A DNA stretch of 64,000 bases from Thalassolituus hydrocarboniclasticus (GTDB taxonomy: Bacteria; Pseudomonadota; Gammaproteobacteria; Pseudomonadales; Oceanobacteraceae), in NCBI RefSeq assembly GCF_025345565.1, contig NZ_CP054475.1:949501-1013500 (forward strand), read 5' to 3'. The notes under the pieces were generated by a model. That model was not told the DNA's origin. It did not search any database and saw nothing but the letters and a program-made list of their open reading frames with translations. Every line of letters begins with the position of its first letter. Position 1 is the first letter of the stretch. The translations under genes were made by a program, and so were the position numbers. Of this stretch, positions 50,202 to 62,075 are shown piece by piece.

Positions 50202-50469
50202 GTGGCTCCCACGCACTCACCTGGCTCCCACGCTGAGCATCACACCTGGCTTCTGGCTCCCACGCTCTGCGTGGTAGTCTTTACGGCATCGCATTCCCAC
50301 GCGGAGCATGGGAACGAGTTCAGCATTATCACCTGGCTCCCACGCGGAGCATCACCTGGCTCCCACGCTCTGCGTGGTAGCCTTTACGGAATTGCATTCC
50401 CACGCGGAGCATGGGAACGAGTTACGCGGAGCATGGGAACGAGTTACGCGGGGTATGGAAACGAATTTA
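50202..50469. repeat. Cluster of palindromic TGGCTCCCACGC/GCGTGGGAACGA repeats
   Basis: The stretch is built from a short GC-rich module (CTGGCTCCCACGCTCTGCGTGG; ATTCCCACGCGGAGCATGGGAA). Two larger units of 103 bases start at 50253 and 50356 and share long identical segments. At the end, GCGGAGCATGGGAACGAGTTAC repeats with period 22 at 50404, 50426 and, degenerate, 50448. The same module occurs singly at 54661-54688 and 59104-59131. Short frames through it are not genes. Confidence 0.85.
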
Positions 50470-50503
50470 AAAAAAAGACCTCAGCGGCGGGCCGCTGAGG
50501 TCT
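50463..50503 (-). terminator. Intrinsic terminator of the phosphoesterase gene
   Basis: AGACCTCAGCGG (50476-50487) and CCGCTGAGGTCT (50492-50503) form a perfect 12-bp stem with a CGGG loop. The A-run at 50469-50476 gives the T-run on the minus strand, 28 bases after the stop at 50531. Confidence 0.88.
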
Positions 50504-50530
50504 GTTTCTGTATTGTGAAAAATACAGGTA

Positions 50531-53658: not shown

Positions 53659-54276
53659 ATGCAACAACTCAGCGAGCAATGGCAGCAACAGGCGCAGCAG
53701 TGGGGGGCCGGCAGTCAGGCCTGCCAGCAGGTGTTTAACCTGCTGCAGAGCAGCTACAGCGGCGCGCAGCGCTTCTACCACGGCATTGGCCATATCCGGC
53801 AGATGCTGGAGCTGGCGGAGCAACAGCGCGCGGCGATAGCAGACTGGCCGGCGTTCTTCTTTGCCATCTGGTTTCACGATCTGATTCAGCAGAACAAAGG
53901 CAATAACGAAGAGCTGAGTGCGGCTCTGGCGCGCGAATATCTGCAGCCGCTGGCGGTTCCTGAAGCGGTGATCGCCAAAGCCGAACAACTGATTCTGGCA
54001 ACCCGCACTCATCAGTATCAGGCCGACGGTGATGTGCAACTGTTTATGGATATCGACCTGTCGATACTGGCCGCCGAACCTGCGGCTTACCGTGCTTATG
54101 CCAGCCAGTGCCGCAAAGAATACTTTCTGCCCGACTTTGTTTACCGCTTTGGCCGTCGCCGTTTTCTGCATGAGCTGTCAGGGCGCGAATGGATCTTCTC
54201 CAGCCCGTATTTCAGACAACACAGTGAGCAGGTTGCCCGCGCCAATATTCACTGGGAGCTGGAGGAGTGGTTATGA
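53659..54276 (+). CDS. HD-superfamily metal-dependent phosphohydrolase
   Basis: 205 residues from the ATG at 53659 (AAGGAG eight bases upstream). The frame opens earlier, but that part covers operator O2. The HD signature is split as in this COG4339-type family: RFYHGIGHIRQML (first His pair), FAIWFHDLIQQN (HD) and MDIDLSILAAEP (late Asp). Substrate unknown; such proteins may act on nucleotides. The stop overlaps the next start (ATGA). Its promoter sits between two TetR operators, so it is probably inducible. Confidence 0.85.
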   Translation: MQQLSEQWQQQAQQWGAGSQACQQVFNLLQSSYSGAQRFYHGIGHIRQMLELAEQQRAAIADWPAFFFAIWFHDLIQQNKGNNEELSAALAREYLQPLAVPEAVIAKAEQLILATRTHQYQADGDVQLFMDIDLSILAAEPAAYRAYASQCRKEYFLPDFVYRFGRRRFLHELSGREWIFSSPYFRQHSEQVARANIHWELEEWL

Positions 54277-54656
54277 GCCTTTTTAAAAAAATCAGCGACG
54301 GCTGGCAGCGTGCGGTTAATGGTAACGTTGTGAGAGAGCCTGATGTGAAATTTACTGACCGCGGCATGCATATCACCCAGGGCAATGGCATCGAGCTGGA
54401 TATTGCTTTCAGCGCCATAGACCAGATCGACATTATCACCACCGACCAGGGCCCGTGGCGGGAAGATGTCTGGTGGTGTTTTTACCTGAGCAATGAAGAG
54501 AAGCCGGTGTATTTACCGCAGGGCATTAAAGGGGAAGACCAGATACTGCTCGTGCTGGAAAAGCACTTTGCCGGAATCGATTTTCAGACGTTTATTATGG
54601 CTATGGGCTCGGCAGAAAATGCGGTGTTTAATCTGTGGCGACGGGCGGAAGGCTGA
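54273..54656 (+). CDS. Hypothetical protein coupled to the HD hydrolase
   Basis: 127 residues from the ATG at 54273, which overlaps the previous stop and has GGAGGAGTGGTT upstream. It begins MSLFKKISDGWQRAV and then appears as a mixed alpha/beta domain: VKFTDRGMHITQGNGIELDI, FSAIDQIDIITTDQGPW and FYLSNEEKPVYLPQG. It might be a PH-like or small sensory domain, but no family is recognised. Being second in a TetR-controlled pair suggests a shared role with the hydrolase. Confidence 0.65.
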   Translation: MSLFKKISDGWQRAVNGNVVREPDVKFTDRGMHITQGNGIELDIAFSAIDQIDIITTDQGPWREDVWWCFYLSNEEKPVYLPQGIKGEDQILLVLEKHFAGIDFQTFIMAMGSAENAVFNLWRRAEG

Positions 54657-54660
54657 GCAT

Positions 54661-54688
54661 CTGGCTCCCACGCAGAGCGTGGGAACGA
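54661..54688. repeat. Single palindromic repeat at the left border of the helicase island
   Basis: CTGGCTCCCACGCAGAGCGTGGGAACGA, the same module as the 50.2-50.5 kb cluster and 59104-59131. It lies five bases after the last core-like gene and about 120 bases before the helicase stop codon. 54689-54806 holds a small hairpin (GCTTGT-AACTCG-ACAAGC) and nothing else recognisable. Confidence 0.8.
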
Positions 54689-54806
54689 TAAAAGAGTCCA
54701 TGCCTGTTATCAGACTGGAAATCAATGGAGTTTAGAGTGTGTGTCCGCTAGCGCTTGATTGCACAACGCTTGTAACTCGACAAGCACATTGCTCGCTCAG
54801 TTTAAG

Positions 54807-57800
54807 TTATGCATCTCCTGAAAGGCGCTTCCATATCTTCTGATAATCCTCACCAGAGAGTGATGAGTTCTCTGGCTTCAAACGGGTCCAATCATCCGGT
54901 TTCAAAGATTTCAAATATTCACTGGCTTTTCGAGGCGACAGAATATTTTCCGCACCGGCTTCAGTTCGAGCCTTAAAGTCTTCACCGGCACGTTCAGCAA
55001 TGCTTCGTGGAACGCTGTTCATGCGCATCAACACACCTTCTTCGGTTTTCACACCATGGTAAAGCATAGCTGGGAGGTTATTTAATCTACGCTTTTCTTC
55101 GTCTGTCATGGCTTCAAAATCAAGCCCTGAAGTTGGCATTTTACTTAATGCCGACAACCCCCAAGCGCCATTGTTAGCCAAGTCTCTATACACCGCTCTA
55201 CAAGCTTTAGAGATTTGATCTGTAAGGCTATCACCTTCAAAGTAAGTCTTCGCTATAGACTCAATGGAGCTGCCTGTTACCCAAGCCTGGGTAATATCAG
55301 CAAGTTTACGATGACTATTGCCCTGACCTTTACTGATCTCTCGCAGGCTCTCTTGTAACTGCGGAACCTTAAGCATAATCCCCATTAAGCTTGGCAACAC
55401 AGACTTTGATTTATCACCAAATAGGCTCGAAGGCTCCCAATCCGAAAGCGTTAATTTATTTTCAAGGTTATTCAAATCCAATAAAGTTGAACGAACACCC
55501 TCAGGAGAGAAACCGGTAACATCAGCAAGCGAAGCATTTTCTGGATGCTCAGCTAACGTTCTAACATATCCTTTGGTGGCTTCAAGAAGCGCGTCGGCTT
55601 TTTCTTGCGAAGCCTGATCAGCCTTAGCGCGAAGAGAACCAAAGCCATAGGTATTTCGCAATAATTGTTCTGCTTCACCAATTACAGCGTCCAAATTACG
55701 TTTTTCATTCCACAAATGAGCGATATAGCTTCTGAAGTCAGCCCATTGTTCTTGCTGCATAACCAAAGATAAGTTTGCTAATTCCCCCGCAGCTTGAAGA
55801 TCATCTAGCATTCCTTCCAAGCGGGAAACTAACGATGCGGTTGCATCACTAACATATTTTCGGATCTCATTCGGTTCTTTGCCCGCAGCAATACCGATAA
55901 CGCCGACGCTATCATGGCCGATACGCCCAGCACGACCCGCGAGGTTCCAAAATGCCCGATGCGACATTTCATTGCCGTAAGGTAATTTTCTCGTCGCAAG
56001 AAAAACAGATGAAACAGGGAAGTTAAGCCCTTGTGCAATGGTTGTCGTTGCACACATCACCCGAATATGGCCGGCTTCTGTAAGCCACTCGATTAATGAA
56101 AGCGCCTCAGCAGGTAAACCAGCATGATGCACAACGACACCTTTTGACAGCATATCAATTAGCTCGAAGTCCTCGCTAATCTCAGCAGCAAGAAAACGCT
56201 GAACCAGTTTAATGTCTTCATGCACCTGGACCAAAGGTTCAAGCTCTTCTGCAACTTTACGAGCAATACTCCAGGCATCTGGAATCGTCTGCGCCACCGC
56301 AATACTGGTACCACGCTTAGAGAACACCTTAGCCATAGCAACAGCCTGTGTTGCAAGCCCTTTAGCGCTAGAGTAAGTCAGTTTTTGCAGAGGTCGGTTA
56401 CCATCTACATTGTGGATTCCTTTAAGATGAATCGTACGTTGAGTGGTCGTCAACGTTTCAAAACTTAAATTCCAATCACCACGTTTTTCACCTTTGTGGA
56501 TATCGAATAAGCCAACAATTCTCTCGTTCGGTTGCCACGCTGAAGTACCTAAGCTGATGCTTCGGCCGCGATCAGCAGCTAGCCATTGAGCTAAATCGTT
56601 AGCATTCGGAACAAATGGCATCAATAGTAAAAAGTTTGCCCGAGGTGATTCTTGCTTAATCGTTGCAAGCAGAAGTTCAATCCGCAATCCACGCGATTCA
56701 TCTTCAATATTGTGAGCTTCATCCATCACAACCAAGGCCAATGGACGAGCGACTTTTTTGTTCCTCATCACCAACTGAAGTTTCTCAGGTGTAGCAACCA
56801 AAACCTGAAAAGCACGTGCTTCACCCAAAAGAGCTTCTTCAAAAGCATCTACTTCAATCGCGCCAGTTAACGGCTCAACTTGAATGCCTAATGGGCCAAA
56901 ATCTTCACGTAATCGACGGGTAATTTGAGCAACCAAAGCACGAGTTGGCGCAACATAGGCCACCCAACCATCATCCCGATCAAATTGGTTAAGTGCTTGC
57001 AACATACGGAATTGCGCCAGCGCTGTTTTACCGCCTGATGTAGGCAAATCAACAATTACCGCTCTGCTGGCTTGGTCGAGTAAACCTTGCTCTTGAAGCG
57101 CAGCTCGTTGCGGCGGTAATAGCTCAAAGAAGCTCTTGTGCTTTGTTACATGGGAAACAAAGCGAGTCACACGGGAGTTAACCGTATGAGCCACCCACCA
57201 TAACGAGCCTGCGACCATTTTTCGGCTTGCGACATGTAGCCAGCGTAAGATCATTTCGAGTTGCGGGTCTTTCGAGGCTTGAGCCGCTTTTTGCGCCGCT
57301 TCAAAATGCTGATCTAATTGCGCATCTATCGCTACCGGTTCGCCTTGCAGCATGTACACAGCTAAACGCTCAGTTGCTTTTGCCCAGTGATAAAGCGCTA
57401 CTAATCGCATGGCTATGCTTTGCGCCTCTGCACCTTGGCTTTGTTCTAGTAACGCTTTTTCGTAGTTTGCTTGATCGTTTCGTAAGCCAAGCACAATCTC
57501 TGAAATCTGATCTAAGTCGTCCCAGCGGTTTTTACGTAGCAGCCGTAACCAACAATCAAAAATTCGGTATAGCAAACGCTTATCCCAAGTGACACCTGCC
57601 ACACTGGGTACTGCTACTGTACTGTGTTGCTCTTGAAACCATCGACGCAAGTCAGTCCAGCGATCTGCGCAGTAGGCTAAACCCGACACATGCAAAACAT
57701 GAAACAAGCGCGCCTCATTGTCACTAGGTACGGGTAATACACGATAAAGCCCGAACGCCCGAAACGCGCCAGCTTGTGCAAGCTCACGAATATTTTTATT

Positions 57801-58049
57801 GTCTTGATTGGCTACGGGGTGCAACAAAGCGCCAATGCCTTCGATCGCGGCCAACTCATACGCCGTCGCTACTTGCTCTAACAAGTCGCTGTCAAATTCA
57901 GTTGCCGCATGTTCAAGTAGATTACTCAGCGCCACATCAACCAAGCGCCGCTCAGCCATTTCCATAGCAGCAACACGCCGTTCGTCGTGAATGGACTGAA
58001 CAGCCCAATGCTGATCTACCTGCAGTAAGTGCTCTTGTGAAAGCGTCAT
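54807..58049 (-). CDS. Ski2-like superfamily 2 helicase, probable defence protein
   Basis: 1080 residues. Residues 1-305 are helical and unfamiliar. The helicase core follows: Walker A PTSGGKTALAQ (336-346), YVAPTRALVAQ (365-375), DEAH in VVMDEAHNIED (443-446), PFVPNANDLAQWL, HHAGLP (641-646), CATTTIAQGLNFPV (motif V, about 666-679) and NLAGRAGRIGHD (702-713). These are Ski2-like motifs, as in HamB of Hachiman and other antiphage helicases. The C-terminal 350 residues are helical. A strong GGAGG precedes the ATG, which overlaps the nuclease-like gene by four bases. GC is visibly lower than in the flanking core genes. Confidence 0.85.
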   Translation of the reverse strand: MTLSQEHLLQVDQHWAVQSIHDERRVAAMEMAERRLVDVALSNLLEHAATEFDSDLLEQVATAYELAAIEGIGALLHPVANQDNKNIRELAQAGAFRAFGLYRVLPVPSDNEARLFHVLHVSGLAYCADRWTDLRRWFQEQHSTVAVPSVAGVTWDKRLLYRIFDCWLRLLRKNRWDDLDQISEIVLGLRNDQANYEKALLEQSQGAEAQSIAMRLVALYHWAKATERLAVYMLQGEPVAIDAQLDQHFEAAQKAAQASKDPQLEMILRWLHVASRKMVAGSLWWVAHTVNSRVTRFVSHVTKHKSFFELLPPQRAALQEQGLLDQASRAVIVDLPTSGGKTALAQFRMLQALNQFDRDDGWVAYVAPTRALVAQITRRLREDFGPLGIQVEPLTGAIEVDAFEEALLGEARAFQVLVATPEKLQLVMRNKKVARPLALVVMDEAHNIEDESRGLRIELLLATIKQESPRANFLLLMPFVPNANDLAQWLAADRGRSISLGTSAWQPNERIVGLFDIHKGEKRGDWNLSFETLTTTQRTIHLKGIHNVDGNRPLQKLTYSSAKGLATQAVAMAKVFSKRGTSIAVAQTIPDAWSIARKVAEELEPLVQVHEDIKLVQRFLAAEISEDFELIDMLSKGVVVHHAGLPAEALSLIEWLTEAGHIRVMCATTTIAQGLNFPVSSVFLATRKLPYGNEMSHRAFWNLAGRAGRIGHDSVGVIGIAAGKEPNEIRKYVSDATASLVSRLEGMLDDLQAAGELANLSLVMQQEQWADFRSYIAHLWNEKRNLDAVIGEAEQLLRNTYGFGSLRAKADQASQEKADALLEATKGYVRTLAEHPENASLADVTGFSPEGVRSTLLDLNNLENKLTLSDWEPSSLFGDKSKSVLPSLMGIMLKVPQLQESLREISKGQGNSHRKLADITQAWVTGSSIESIAKTYFEGDSLTDQISKACRAVYRDLANNGAWGLSALSKMPTSGLDFEAMTDEEKRRLNNLPAMLYHGVKTEEGVLMRMNSVPRSIAERAGEDFKARTEAGAENILSPRKASEYLKSLKPDDWTRLKPENSSLSGEDYQKIWKRLSGDA

Positions 58050-58843
58050 GACGCCTCCTGCATAGCCGCTTGAGCACGAGCAGACAGCGTACCAATCATG
58101 TTAAGGGGAAGGTATAAAGCGTACATTTCAATATCAGTTTGCACTGGACAATCGGCCGCCAGTGCTTTTGCTCGGCCAGCAATATCAGAAGCGCTTGGGG
58201 CAATATCGCGCACCAAAATACCATAAACAGCAACGTCCGTTGTATTCGAGCTAAAATAGCGTTTGGCAGCGCTTTTAAACATCGGCTCCCAAGGTGCTTG
58301 CACCGCATGAAGACCTAAATAACGTAAGAGAGCATCTTTTACTTGGCGATTATCTCGTAGCCCAGACAATTGGTTACCCAAGCTGGTCATAACGCTTGGC
58401 GGTGTTTTGTTCTCTTCAGACGTTTTTACTTCACCAAACGCAAAACGGTAAGGATACTCAGCATCGTTTACAGGCTGAAACCCGGTCAAATCGCACCCTG
58501 CTGGGCTTGCGTTCGGATTTTTAAGATCACGTCCTGTTGGCCACGGAAACACACAATTGCCTTTGTCCACCACAAAGGCTTCGGCAATAGCTTCGCCCAC
58601 TCGCCAGTTATCTGGCACAGTTTCATCTGTCAGTGCTTGGCGTAAACCTTCTTGCTCAAATTCAGTGCTCACGACACTGCCAAGTAACTCCTGGAGCTCA
58701 TCATTGCCTGCGGTATCTTGCAAAATATCCTTTACGGGGCCAGCTAACATCTCGCTCACTTGCTCGTCTTGATAAGACAAACCATGAGCAATTACAGGCT
58801 GGGTGCCAGCATCATAAGCAAGCGTCGGTGTAGGCATAGGCAT
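58046..58843 (-). CDS. PD-(D/E)XK-like nuclease candidate (HamA/DUF1837-like?)
   Basis: 265 residues from the ATG at 58843 (GGAG nine bases upstream; a TTG precedes it). A restriction-nuclease-like signature is visible: WRVGEAIAEAFV (helix with Glu, about 80-91), GCDLTGFQ with an Asp near 118, then FAFGEVKTSEE with E-x-K near 138-140. This E..D..ExK order fits PD-(D/E)XK folds. Overlap with a Ski2-like helicase gene makes it the likely effector of a nuclease-helicase defence pair, as HamA is in Hachiman. Membership of DUF1837 cannot be confirmed by eye. Confidence 0.65.
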   Translation of the reverse strand: MPMPTPTLAYDAGTQPVIAHGLSYQDEQVSEMLAGPVKDILQDTAGNDELQELLGSVVSTEFEQEGLRQALTDETVPDNWRVGEAIAEAFVVDKGNCVFPWPTGRDLKNPNASPAGCDLTGFQPVNDAEYPYRFAFGEVKTSEENKTPPSVMTSLGNQLSGLRDNRQVKDALLRYLGLHAVQAPWEPMFKSAAKRYFSSNTTDVAVYGILVRDIAPSASDIAGRAKALAADCPVQTDIEMYALYLPLNMIGTLSARAQAAMQEAS

Positions 58844-59112
58844 CAAACCAATTCTCCATAAAAGGCTTTGTCCATAATCGAAGGCATCAGAACTTCCAGT
58901 TCGGTCTCATTTCCGATTGAACTTATGGCATAACTACGAATTTGATTACACCGAAGGTTATAGCGGCTAGAGGAGCGTGATGCATTCTTTAACCTTTTCA
59001 TCGCTATAGTCCAGTTTTTTTGTACTAACAAAGAATATGGAGCAACGCGAGTGACATTACTTACACTTGGTACGTCTTTAGTAAGCACTTGCTTAAGCCG
59101 CTGCGTTCCCAC
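58843..59112 (-). CDS. Small upstream ORF of the helicase operon, probably 5'-truncated
   Basis: Up to 89 codons, but the only early start (GTG 59112) lies inside the palindromic repeat and has no ribosome-binding site; an internal ATG at 59001 gives 52 residues. The stop overlaps the nuclease-like start (TGATG), so the 3' end is organised as a real gene. The composition is basic (MKRLKNASRSSSRYNLR), ending in ELEVLMPSIMDKAFYGELV. It may be a small third component, or the remnant of a longer gene cut off when the repeat-bounded junction formed. Confidence 0.45.
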   Translation of the reverse strand: MGTQRLKQVLTKDVPSVSNVTRVAPYSLLVQKNWTIAMKRLKNASRSSSRYNLRCNQIRSYAISSIGNETELEVLMPSIMDKAFYGELV

Positions 59113-59131
59113 GCCGAAGCGTGGGAACGAG
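59104..59131. repeat. Single palindromic repeat at the right border of the helicase island
   Basis: CGTTCCCACGCCGAAGCGTGGGAACGAG: 12-bp arms (CGTTCCCACGCC-like) around a short centre. Same family as 54661-54688. It separates the helicase operon from the gcvP stop at 59148 and supplies the first codons of the small upstream ORF. Confidence 0.85.
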
Positions 59132-59147
59132 AAAACTACGAAAACAT

Positions 59148-62075
59148 TCAGTCCTCGTAATTCTCAATCGCCGGGCAAGAACAAATCAGGTTGCGGTCGC
59201 CGTACACATCATCAATACGGCCAACGGTTGGCCAGAATTTATGGGCACCGAGTTCTTTAACCGGGTAAGCGGCCAGTTCGCGGCTGTATGGACGATCCCA
59301 TTCGCCGGCAATTACCGGTGCGGTGTGCGGGGCGTTTTTCAGCGGGTTGTTTTCCGCATCCAGTTCGCCGCGCAGTACCGCGTCGATTTCGCCTTTGATG
59401 CTGATCATGGCGTCAGCAAAGCGGTCGATTTCGGCTTTGGATTCCGATTCGGTCGGCTCGATCATAAAGGTGCCTGCAACCGGGAACGACATGGTCGGCG
59501 CGTGGAAACCGTAGTCCATTAAGCGCTTGGCGATATCTACTTCGGTAATGCCGCTTTCGGCTTTCAGCGGACGCAGGTCAACAATACATTCGTGCGCCAC
59601 ACGGCCGTTCTGGCCGGAGTACAGAATCGGGTAGTGAGCCGATAAGCGCTTGGCCAGGTAGTTGGCTTTCAGCAGTGCGTTTTGGGTCGCACGACGCAGA
59701 CCTTTGCCGCCCATCAGGGTGATGTACATCCAGCTGATGGTGAGAATGCTGGCGGAGCCGTAAGGCGCAGCCGATACCGCGCCATTGCCTTTGGCTTCGT
59801 TCTCCAGCGGGCGTACCGCGTGGTTGGCCACGAATGGCGCCAGATGTTTGGCAACACCGATAGGGCCCATGCCCGGGCCGCCGCCGCCGTGTGGAATGGC
59901 GAAGGTTTTGTGCAGGTTCATGTGCGATACGTCGGCACCGATAAAGGCCGGCTGGGTAATGCCCACCTGTGCGTTCAGGTTGGCGCCGTCCATATACACC
60001 TGGCCGCCGAGGCTGTGTACCAGATCGCAGATTTCACGCACGCCCTGCTCGTAAATACCGTGGGTCGACGGGTAGGTCAGCATCAGGCACGACAGCTGGT
60101 CGCCGATTTCTTCGGCTTTTTTCTTCAGGTCGTCAAAGTCGACGTTACCTTCGTCATCGCAGTTGGTGACCACAACGCGCATCGAGGCCATTTGCGCCGA
60201 CGCCGGGTTAGTACCGTGGGCAGAGCGCGGAATCAAACAGACGTTACGGTGACCTTCGCCACGGCTCTCGTGGTATTTCTTGATCGCCAGCAGACCGGCG
60301 TATTCGCCCTGCGCACCGGAGTTCGGTTGCATACAGATGGCGTCAAAACCGGTAACGGCTTTGAGGTAGTCGTCCAGCTCGGCAATCATCTGCTCGTAGC
60401 CAACAGTCTGTGACTTAGGCGCGAACGGGTGAATATTGGAGAACTCAGGCCAGGTAACCGGAATCATTTCGGTGGTGGCGTTCAGTTTCATGGTGCAGGA
60501 ACCCAGCGTGATCATGCTGTGGTTCATGGCCAGGTCTTTCGACTCCAGACGCTTCATATAACGCAGCATTTCATGCTCGGTATGGTAGCGGTTGAAGGTC
60601 GGGTGGGTCAGGAATTCGGTGTTACGTGCCTGACCGGCGTCGATGCTGTTGGAACCGCTGGCAACAATCTGCGCATCCAGTGCGTATACATCCAGACCGT
60701 GACCTTCGCCGAGAATAATATCGAACAGTTCCTGTACATCGGCTGCAGAAGTTTTCTCGTGCAGGCTGACACCCAGAGTGTTTGCGGCCATACCCAGAGC
60801 GGCGTCGTCGCGCAGGTTCACTTCACGCGCTTCGGCACGGGCCAGTAGTGCGGCTTTGTCGCTGGCGTTAAAGGTCAGGGTGTCGAACCAGTGGTTGTTG
60901 ACCAGCTCAATGCCTTTAGCCTGCAGGCCTGCTGCCAGAATATCGGTTAAGCGGTGAATTCGGCCGGCAATGGTCTTCAGACCTTGTGGGCCGTGGTAGA
61001 CGGCGTAGAAGGAACTCAGGTTGGCCAGCAGCACCTGCGCAGTACAGATGTTGGAGTTGGCCTTCTCACGGCGGATATGCTGTTCACGGGTCTGCAGTGC
61101 CATACGCAGCGCAGGCTTGCCCTGAGCGTCAATGGATACACCGATAATACGGCCGGGAATATTACGCTTGTACGCATCGCGGGTGGCAAAGAACGCCGCG
61201 TGCGGGCCACCAAAGCCCATCGGCACGCCGAAGTGCTGGGCGTTACCCAGCACGATGTCGGCACCCATTTCGCCCGGTGCTTTCAGCATCACCAGCGCCA
61301 TCAGGTCGGTGGCCACGGCGGCCAGTGCGTCTTTGGCGTGCAGGGCGGTAATCACATCGGTGAAGTCACGCACATCACCGTTTTTACCCGGATACTGGAA
61401 CAGGGCACCGAATACATCGGCGTCGGCAGCGGCATCCGCCGGGCCAACCAGTACGTCCCAGCCAAAGGCTTCGGCGCGGGTTTTGACCACGTCGATGGTC
61501 TGCGGCAGGCAGTTTTCATCGATATAGAAGGTGTTGGATTTGTTTTTCTTTACCGAGCGCTTGGCCATGGCCATGGCTTCGGCAGCGGCGGTGCCTTCGT
61601 CCAGCAGGGAGGCGTTGGCCAGTTCCATACCGGTAAAGTCGATCACCATTTGCTGGAAGTTGAGCAGGGCTTCGAGACGGCCCTGGGCAATTTCCGGCTG
61701 GTAAGGGGTGTAGGCGGTGTACCAGCCCGGATTTTCCAGCACATTGCGCAGAATCACCGGCGGAATAATGGTGTCGTGGTAACCCAGACCGATGTAGCTT
61801 TTAAAGATCTTATTTTGGGCGGCCAGCGCTTTTAAATAATTCAGCGCATCGTATTCCGTTTTGCCGTCGGCAATATCAAGGAAAGGCGCACGCAGAATAT
61901 CAGCGGGGACGATTTCGGCGCTCAGGGCTTCCAGCGAGTCGGCACCAACGGCAGCCAGCAGAGCGGCTTCTTCGTTGCTGTCCGGGCCTGCGCCATTGGA
62001 GGCAATATGACGGCCGATAAAATTATCGCGTTGTTCCAGATCTTTAAGAGACAGTGTGGTCATGGGAGAACTCAA
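59148..62075 (-). CDS. gcvP: Glycine dehydrogenase (decarboxylating), P protein
   Basis: 975-residue PLP enzyme of the glycine cleavage system: decarboxylates glycine and passes the aminomethyl group to lipoylated GcvH. It starts [15 protein letters not shown] and contains [10 protein letters not shown]-type residues ([18 protein letters not shown]), [19 protein letters not shown], and the PLP-lysine region [19 protein letters not shown] (about residue 720). Length fits the fused single-chain P protein. It lies 93 bases after gcvH on the minus strand. Its 3' end adjoins the repeat that borders the helicase island. Confidence 0.98.

Follow-up and report, generated by a model that had tools for sequence, protein, structure and literature searches.

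An Orphan PDC-M23 Nuclease and Helicase Pair downstream of gcvP as a Probable Remote Relative of Hachiman

A chromosomal stretch of 64,000 nucleotides from Thalassolituus hydrocarboniclasticus (contig NZ_CP054475.1, positions 949,501 to 1,013,500, referred to here as the window) contains two adjacent minus-strand genes, M23A and M23B, located downstream of gcvP. M23A is a predicted nuclease and M23B is a Ski2-like helicase. The two genes are probably an orphan PDC-M23 pair, remotely related to HamA and HamB (HamAB) of the Hachiman system, that survived from a composite type I restriction-modification (RM) operon and that would act by a Hachiman-like defense mechanism. The lines of evidence are the similarity of the proteins, the conservation of catalytic residues, the history of the operon, constraint on the sequences, and the accessory location. 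The frames of the block are listed below with their window coordinates.

M23A, 58046–58843, minus strand: predicted PD-(D/E)xK nuclease of 265 residues and putative HamA-like effector, from PADLOC, invariant residues, Foldseek, and the ratio of nonsynonymous to synonymous substitution (dN/dS).
M23B, 54807–58049, minus strand: Ski2-like superfamily 2 (SF2) helicase of 1080 residues and putative HamB-like sensor, from PADLOC, the DEAD Pfam domain, motifs, Foldseek, and dN/dS.
89-residue open reading frame (ORF), 58843–59112, minus strand: decayed 3′ remnant of the type I RM specificity gene hsdS, from BLASTP and tblastn.

The operon is real. An earlier note on this DNA described three minus-strand frames joined by TGATG and ATGA overlaps in an AT-rich block, and these features are present. 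The TGA stop codon of the 89-residue ORF shares one base with the start of M23A (TGATG), and the end of M23A is joined to the start of M23B by an ATGA overlap. M23A has 266 residues if a TTG codon before the ATG is used. The GC content of the block is 0.473 compared to 0.536 for the whole window. Among 240 sliding windows of 4040 bases, only two, both over the block, were at or under this value, and the block is the lowest 4-kb stretch.

M23A, M23B, and Their Relation to Hachiman

M23A matched the PADLOC model PDC-M23A with 383.6 bits over residues 1–264 of 265, and M23B matched PDC-M23B near full length with 1588.4 bits. The next-best models for M23B were those of HamB, the best at 221.8 bits. 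Adjacent genes matching both models place the pair in PDC-M23, an entry of PADLOC-DB 2.0.0 whose name denotes a computational candidate. Since both proteins match full length, the pair is already catalogued. The available part of an archaeal survey (PMC12988326) describes PDCs as putative systems found by “guilt-by-embedding”. No paper was found by a full-text literature search for “PDC-M23”, and no description or mechanism of the M23AB pair was found in the accessible portions of the literature on PDCs, Hachiman, and embedded systems. The earlier note had proposed a divergent Hachiman-like system or an undescribed relative. The pair of nuclease and Ski2-like helicase is indeed divergent but Hachiman-related, and “undescribed” gives way to the PDC-M23 entry. 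The block thus encodes a real Hachiman-like pair that is probably functional and belongs to a candidate family with an existing catalogue entry.

Residues E84, E88, D118, E138, K140, and S142 are invariant in an alignment of 14 M23A sequences that includes the window protein and extends down to 17% identity. The E..D..ExK signature reported previously is borne out by the first five of these residues, and D118, E138, and K140 are the predicted D-ExK nuclease site, which we take to be of the type labeled PD-(D/E)xK. In an alignment of six sampled HamA sequences, G94, E95, G127, D129, G146, E147, and K149 are invariant, and the M23A pattern GE..AE – GxD – GExK resembles this alignment. Comparison of M23A and HamA by hidden Markov models placed GE, GxD, and GExK in register with an E-value of 4e-4 and a probability of just 34%, over the catalytic core only. 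HamA is described in the available text of PMC12278908 as a D-E(x)K nuclease (E138, K140); the residue numbers 138 and 140 shared with M23A are a coincidence. The AlphaFold model of M23A, which is weak, was compared with the PDB using Foldseek. The HamA chains 8vxy_A (2.8e-5) and 8vx9_A (4.5e-5) were the sole matches below 1e-3 and extend over nearly the full length. The window M23A gave no Pfam or NCBIfam match. An M23A profile searched against the sequences of solved structures returned hemoglobin only, at an E-value of about 0.9 that was taken as chance, and a search of a viral fold library gave no match below 1e-3.

A DEAD Pfam domain was found in M23B. The short SF2 motifs that were checked are intact in the window protein. 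They are conserved among the 21 sequences compared, although the more distant members deviate: four have SSGKT in place of SGGKT, L052 has DEAQ in place of DEAH, and L082 has a diverged PPQR (L and G numbers denote loci and genomes, respectively). The core is similar in sequence to Slh1, Brr2, Hel308, and HamB. The solved HamB chain has 1174 residues, and its matched helicase core begins near residue 305. The N-terminus of about 300 residues is therefore a layout common to M23B and HamB, and the longer helicase with an unfamiliar 305-residue N-terminus that had been proposed as a difference is not one. In the low-confidence model of M23B, the first ~280 residues of the N-terminal region (about 1–300) are predicted to be helical with a block pLDDT (predicted local distance difference test) of 50–88. 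According to the accessible part of PMC12278908 (Tuck et al. 2024), HamB is a Ski2-like helicase whose N-terminus forms a helical bundle. When the weak AlphaFold model of M23B was compared with the PDB using Foldseek, HamB provided the top three of the five matches below 1e-3.

In a tree of the helicases, all M23B sequences except that of L082 form a clade with a support of 0.999, apart from seven sampled HamB sequences. The outgroup was a distant Lhr-like protein, and since the split that decides how M23B is rooted relative to HamB has a support of 0.81, no conclusion on rooting is drawn. Two proteins, the 1015-residue M23B relative of L082 and the 1108-residue HamB of L099, take intermediate positions between M23B and the remaining HamB sequences of the sample and are candidate bridges between PDC-M23 and Hachiman. 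By sequence and by model, M23A and M23B look like remote Hachiman relatives.

Restriction Operon Context and Sequence Constraint

The 89-residue ORF was aligned by BLASTP with the HsdS protein of L004, with an E-value of 5e-13 and 43% identity over 79 columns, gapped. By tblastn, window positions 59067–58846 are in frame with HsdS residues 303–380, about the last 78. The similarity starts at 59067 or 59088, depending on the query, and ends at 58846. Because 17 bp separate position 59088 from the facing edge (59106) of a repetitive extragenic palindromic (REP) element, the truncation is placed at or next to this element. With ~43% identity to HsdS, next to an M23A that shares 95% identity with its close relatives, the hsdS tail has decayed. 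The small ORF counted previously as a member of the operon therefore exists, but as a decayed HsdS tail and not as a component of the system. A regulator or antitoxin was considered for this ORF and rejected on the similarity to the HsdS C-terminus and on its end, which coincides with the hsdS/M23A junction of intact operons. When HsdR and HsdM from L002, together with three HsdS sequences, served as tblastn queries (E-values up to 0.1), no hsd remnant beyond the tail was found in the window, and the search did not find the adjacent hsdR, hsdM, and hsdS genes of a type I RM operon. One distant HsdM-like match, 30% identical, was detected in the window genome at C1:2260604.

Six close relatives with M23A 93–95% identical, one of them cut, were obtained by a scan of one genome per species. 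The hosts are Marinobacter, Vibrio, Tolumonas, Pseudoalteromonas, and two metagenome-assembled genomes. M23A is also carried by 5 of 5426 complete Escherichia coli genomes at 91.5–92.9% DNA identity. Identity this high across these bacterial groups points to recent horizontal transfer of the M23 pair. The five of six close relatives with upstream DNA have the order hsdR-hsdM-hsdS-M23A-M23B, with hsdR in two frames in L003. The hsdS stop and the M23A start of intact relatives share one base (TAATG), for which the window equivalent is TGATG. In the annotated E. coli genomes the genes are arranged identically and are preceded by a small helix-turn-helix gene; the operon is located between dinD and yicC, and the surrounding stretch includes an integrase. 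This helix-turn-helix gene, located before hsdR (L069:8754–8951 and L070:8757–8954), is annotated as MADS1. The L069 gene scored 83.2 bits with NF047737 (cut-off 80), and the rest of that operon is type I RM plus M23.

Type I RM genes were found in or beside the M23 pair, in several arrangements, at 17 of the 24 loci with readable context. HsdR, HsdM, or HsdS domains were checked for L067, L071, L073, L074, L075, L079, L081, and L083. The 17 loci are not independent: L002–L006, L069, and L070 are near-identical and represent one lineage, and L076 and L077 are from one genome. The 24 loci leave out L007 (cut contig) as well as L085 and L086, which share their contigs with L067 and L068, respectively. 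A second orphan was found at L078 (G933, another genome of the class, C1:271001–290900), where KAFKGELV-stop, an HsdS ending, abuts the M23A start. This match is short (8 residues, E-value of 0.078 in a small search), and its weight comes from its position. The 19.9 kb read at L078 yielded no Hsd gene, and M23B is split there into frames of 542 and 549 residues. A gcvH-like ORF, identified by eye, lies about 2.4 kb from this M23A. The RM context of 17 of 24 loci, the HsdS tail in the window, and the tail at L078 argue that the pair originated in a restriction operon and persisted after its loss.

Other settings were also observed. At L072 (G756, C1:2995001–3014900) the pair lies inside a DISARM-like cluster that also encodes an MZB helicase, a 1550-residue methyltransferase-like protein, and a DrmD-like protein whose score of 319 bits is below the cut-off of 610. 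At L068/L086 (IMGVR_UViG_3300032770_001058) M23AB stands alone on the strand opposite to tape measure, capsid, and portal genes, and is possibly a phage-borne defense. The remaining loci where no RM gene was found gave no recognizable partner or, as for L084, stop where the contig ends. Short ORFs with a similar start (“TVWLTQ”/“TIWLSQ”, by eye) adjoin M23AB at L071:10153–10716, L079:5721–6044, and L082:13472–13780; one of these three loci is without a recognized Hsd gene. A RhuM-like label for these ORFs is a guess, and no match was found with Pfam (L082) or NCBIfam (L071, L079).

The comparison with related genomes that had been proposed was made, and M23A was not found in any of the eight other genus genomes searched; the pair is not core. 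Including the window genome, M23A was found in 1 of 9 genomes of the genus, 7 of 390 of the order, 6 of 369 of the class, and 2 of 398 of the phylum, using a different M23A query for each count. No match to M23A was found in plasmid and phage records, and no viral contig carrying M23A alone was found. The dN/dS values relative to seven close relatives are 0.099–0.132 for M23A and 0.036–0.058 for M23B. For L002 versus L005, which both keep RM genes, the values are 0.082 and 0.052, respectively. The window branch appears not visibly relaxed in M23B and slightly higher in M23A. This pattern suggests constraint on the pair.

The Variable Slot Downstream of gcvP

The block lies between a hypothetical gene and gcvP, as previously described. 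The elements that border it are as follows.

REP-type palindrome, 54665–54685, no strand: block edge at low coordinates.
REP-type palindrome, 59106–59127, no strand: between gcvP and the HsdS remnant, holding the GTG of the 89-residue ORF.
gcvP, 59148–62075, minus strand: flank of the variable slot.
129-residue hypothetical gene, 54267–54656, plus strand: other slot flank, conserved in sister genomes G008 and G002.

The palindromes CCCACGC-AGA-GCGTGGG (54667–54683) and CCCACGC-CGAA-GCGTGGG (59108–59125) have identical arms and different loops. Two such palindromes were obtained in 0 of 100 shuffles. A looser palindrome with up to 2 mismatches gave 83 forward matches in the window genome versus 0 for a reversed-pattern control; the genus genomes gave 0–83 forward matches each, with 0 or 1 for the control. 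Copies of one palindromic repeat do enclose the block as previously described, but the repeat is not private to it and is of a dispersed REP type. The gcvP gene was found in seven of the eight other genus genomes (none in G003), and the palindrome follows its stop by 33–158 bp in five of these seven, with no copy at this position in G008 or G004. Since the palindrome follows gcvP in most of these genomes and is dispersed in the genus, it probably predates the M23 block. The palindromes mark the slot and not the operon, because they lie beside other cargo at this site in most sister genomes examined.

In G008 and G002 the two conserved slot flanks enclose other DNA, and in G006 gcvP and the DNA further out are retained. 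Other defense or candidate-defense genes occupy the slot in three of the seven gcvP-bearing sister genomes: PDC-M45 genes and a SoFic-like gene in G008 (L038), a PDC-S31 (DUF2971) gene in G005 (L041), and PD-Lambda-1 (409 bits) in G004 (L044). Nothing was recognized in the slots of G002 and G006. These results are for 10 slot proteins submitted to PADLOC, a selection of the ORFs with none from G007 or G001. The slot downstream of gcvP is thus a variable chromosomal site for defense or candidate-defense genes. Because the G004 slot holds PD-Lambda-1 and the scan found no copy of the palindrome in G004, the repeat is not needed for cargo. The same finding and the dispersal of the palindrome weaken the proposal that the repeats delimit a mobile cassette of their own.

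In G007 (L042:10248–10832) and G001 (L043:10219–10800), the slot contains a REP-associated tyrosine transposase beside the palindrome. These proteins scored 97.6 and 97.0 bits, respectively, with NCBIfam NF047646 (cut-off 80), and the G007 protein is without a Pfam match. A search of the window genome with Pfam Y1_Tnp found none, but the same search missed the G007 and G001 proteins, so this does not establish absence. No integrase was recognized by eye among the listed slot ORFs. Elsewhere in the window, two further tandem palindrome pairs that are REPIN-like, each with two REP variants, are located at 50257–50417. Beside them a minus-strand hairpin with a T-run is seen by eye near 50468–50505.

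Proposed Mechanism, Alternatives, and Known Systems

In the proposed history, an hsdR-hsdM-hsdS-M23A-M23B operon would have been gained by horizontal transfer. The restriction genes would then have been lost up to the hsdS tail (the last ~75 codons), next to a REP palindrome, and the pair kept. By analogy with HamAB, for which HamA binding by the N-terminal helical bundle of HamB and damage-triggered DNA degradation with abortive infection are defining features, we infer DNA cleavage, damage sensing, and antiphage action by M23AB. M23B would survey DNA and meanwhile keep M23A inactive. DNA ends or single-strand structures caused by phage would load M23B and release M23A, and the freed M23A would destroy DNA, by which the infection would be aborted. 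In intact operons, breaks made by the restriction enzyme may be an extra trigger. Because the orphan state exists, the pair would not need its former Hsd partners for silencing.

Several results weigh against this reading. The models are weak, with a mean pLDDT (8 sequences each) of 63.0 for M23A and 49.7 for M23B, and TM-scores of 0.42–0.49 to HamA and below 0.2 to HamB. M23A does not reach the gathering score of 25 for Pfam HamA PF08878 (DUF1837); the best of 14 members is that of L080, at 16.7 bits. Seven of the 24 loci (L052, L068, L072, L078, L080, L082, and L084, the last at a contig edge) are without type I RM genes. This absence is not firm, since the first pass relied on a small set of Hsd references and failed to detect the HsdR and HsdS proteins at L073; Pfam found no Hsd protein in ORFs of these loci (8 from L052, 3 each from L080 and L082, and 2 each from L078 and L084). 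The M23A dN/dS values exceed the 0.082 of the pair that keeps its RM genes, and because dN/dS includes the time before the restriction genes were lost, it is no proof of constraint on the orphan. A promoter and terminator scan gave fewer matches than in shuffles. No sigma-70-like site was found upstream of the block on the coding strand, and expression of M23AB is therefore unproven. The gcvP gene lies upstream in the same orientation, so read-through transcription from gcvP into the block is possible.

Other readings were also considered. It is conceivable, with low confidence, that M23AB is a DNA-end-sensing amplifier of methylation-based immunity, in which breaks on unmodified phage DNA would load M23B and M23A would finish the degradation. 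Since such a sensor would read DNA ends and not Hsd proteins, the pair could break away and act alone, and it would move between type I RM operons, the DISARM-like cluster, phages, and REP-bounded slots. An orphan that is a nonfunctional, not yet decayed leftover of the lost restriction operon is unlikely. The decayed upstream hsdS, the promoter-like site not found on its strand, and the split helicase of L078 would fit a leftover, but both window frames are full-length with intact catalytic residues and checked helicase motifs, and substitutions relative to relatives are mostly synonymous, in contrast to the much stronger divergence of the adjoining hsdS tail. A guard that the Hsd complex silences and that fires when a phage inhibits restriction has a precedent in PrrC, which is embedded in an hsd operon. 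Such a role for M23AB is somewhat less likely again. The RM genes at 17 of 24 loci and the stop–start overlap with hsdS in close relatives speak for it, the split M23B of L078 would fit, and silencing in trans by the distant HsdM-like protein (30%) would be conceivable. After the loss of the Hsd proteins, however, an effector that they silence should be lethal or broken, and the window copy is intact; full-length pairs with no Hsd gene found nearby also occur at L080, L082, and L068, where part of the neighbors were submitted to Pfam.

A canonical Hachiman system is improbable despite the fold and motif similarity to HamA and HamB. Pfam HamA gave no match to the window M23A, the family as curated leaves M23A outside (one of 14 members matches, at 16.7 bits against the cut-off of 25), and M23B scores 1588 bits with PDC-M23B versus 222 with HamB. 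The M23B clade without L082 also stands apart from the seven sampled HamB sequences, with L082 and the HamB of L099 between. If the pair were a helicase for housekeeping DNA repair or recombination and its accessory protein, the core similarity to Hel308 and Brr2 would be accounted for, but this reading is very hard to reconcile with the sporadic distribution from genus to phylum and with the adjoining defense genes.

With the orphan, Hachiman-like pair as the probable explanation, PDC-M23, a catalogued candidate for which no published mechanism was found, is linked to Hachiman and thereby to a likely mechanism. The window copy and L078, at which just an hsdS tail was found, offer a natural test of whether the embedded module depends on its restriction operon. 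If the orphan defends alone, the embedding would be modular stacking; if HsdRMS is needed, the pair would be a guard or an amplifier. The gcvP slot is in addition a REP-bordered site that holds different defense or candidate-defense genes in sister species.

The closest known entry is PDC-M23 itself, to which both proteins are near full-length matches, and the usual companion restriction genes are lost in the window copy. Hachiman HamA-HamB of E. coli ECOR31 (8VX9, 8VXY; described in the available portion of PMC12278908) is likewise a two-gene operon of a D-ExK nuclease and a Ski2-like helicase, with ~300 residues before the HamB core as in M23B, and is the best fold match for both weak M23 models. 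It differs in that M23A is outside PF08878, with a profile alignment limited to the catalytic core, and in that type I RM genes usually accompany M23AB. AbpAB, a Hachiman variant covered in the same portion of PMC12278908, is also a nuclease and Ski2-like helicase pair. AbpA is described there as combining a Cap4-like nuclease domain at its N-terminus with a HamA-like domain that is inactive, whereas M23A is one short protein whose site is intact. DarTG2 in the RRDM island of enteropathogenic E. coli (accessible part of PMC12255303) resembles PDC-M23 as a second defense module in or at the end of hsd genes. Here, in contrast, the module is a nuclease–helicase pair, and the window presents the state after the restriction genes were lost.

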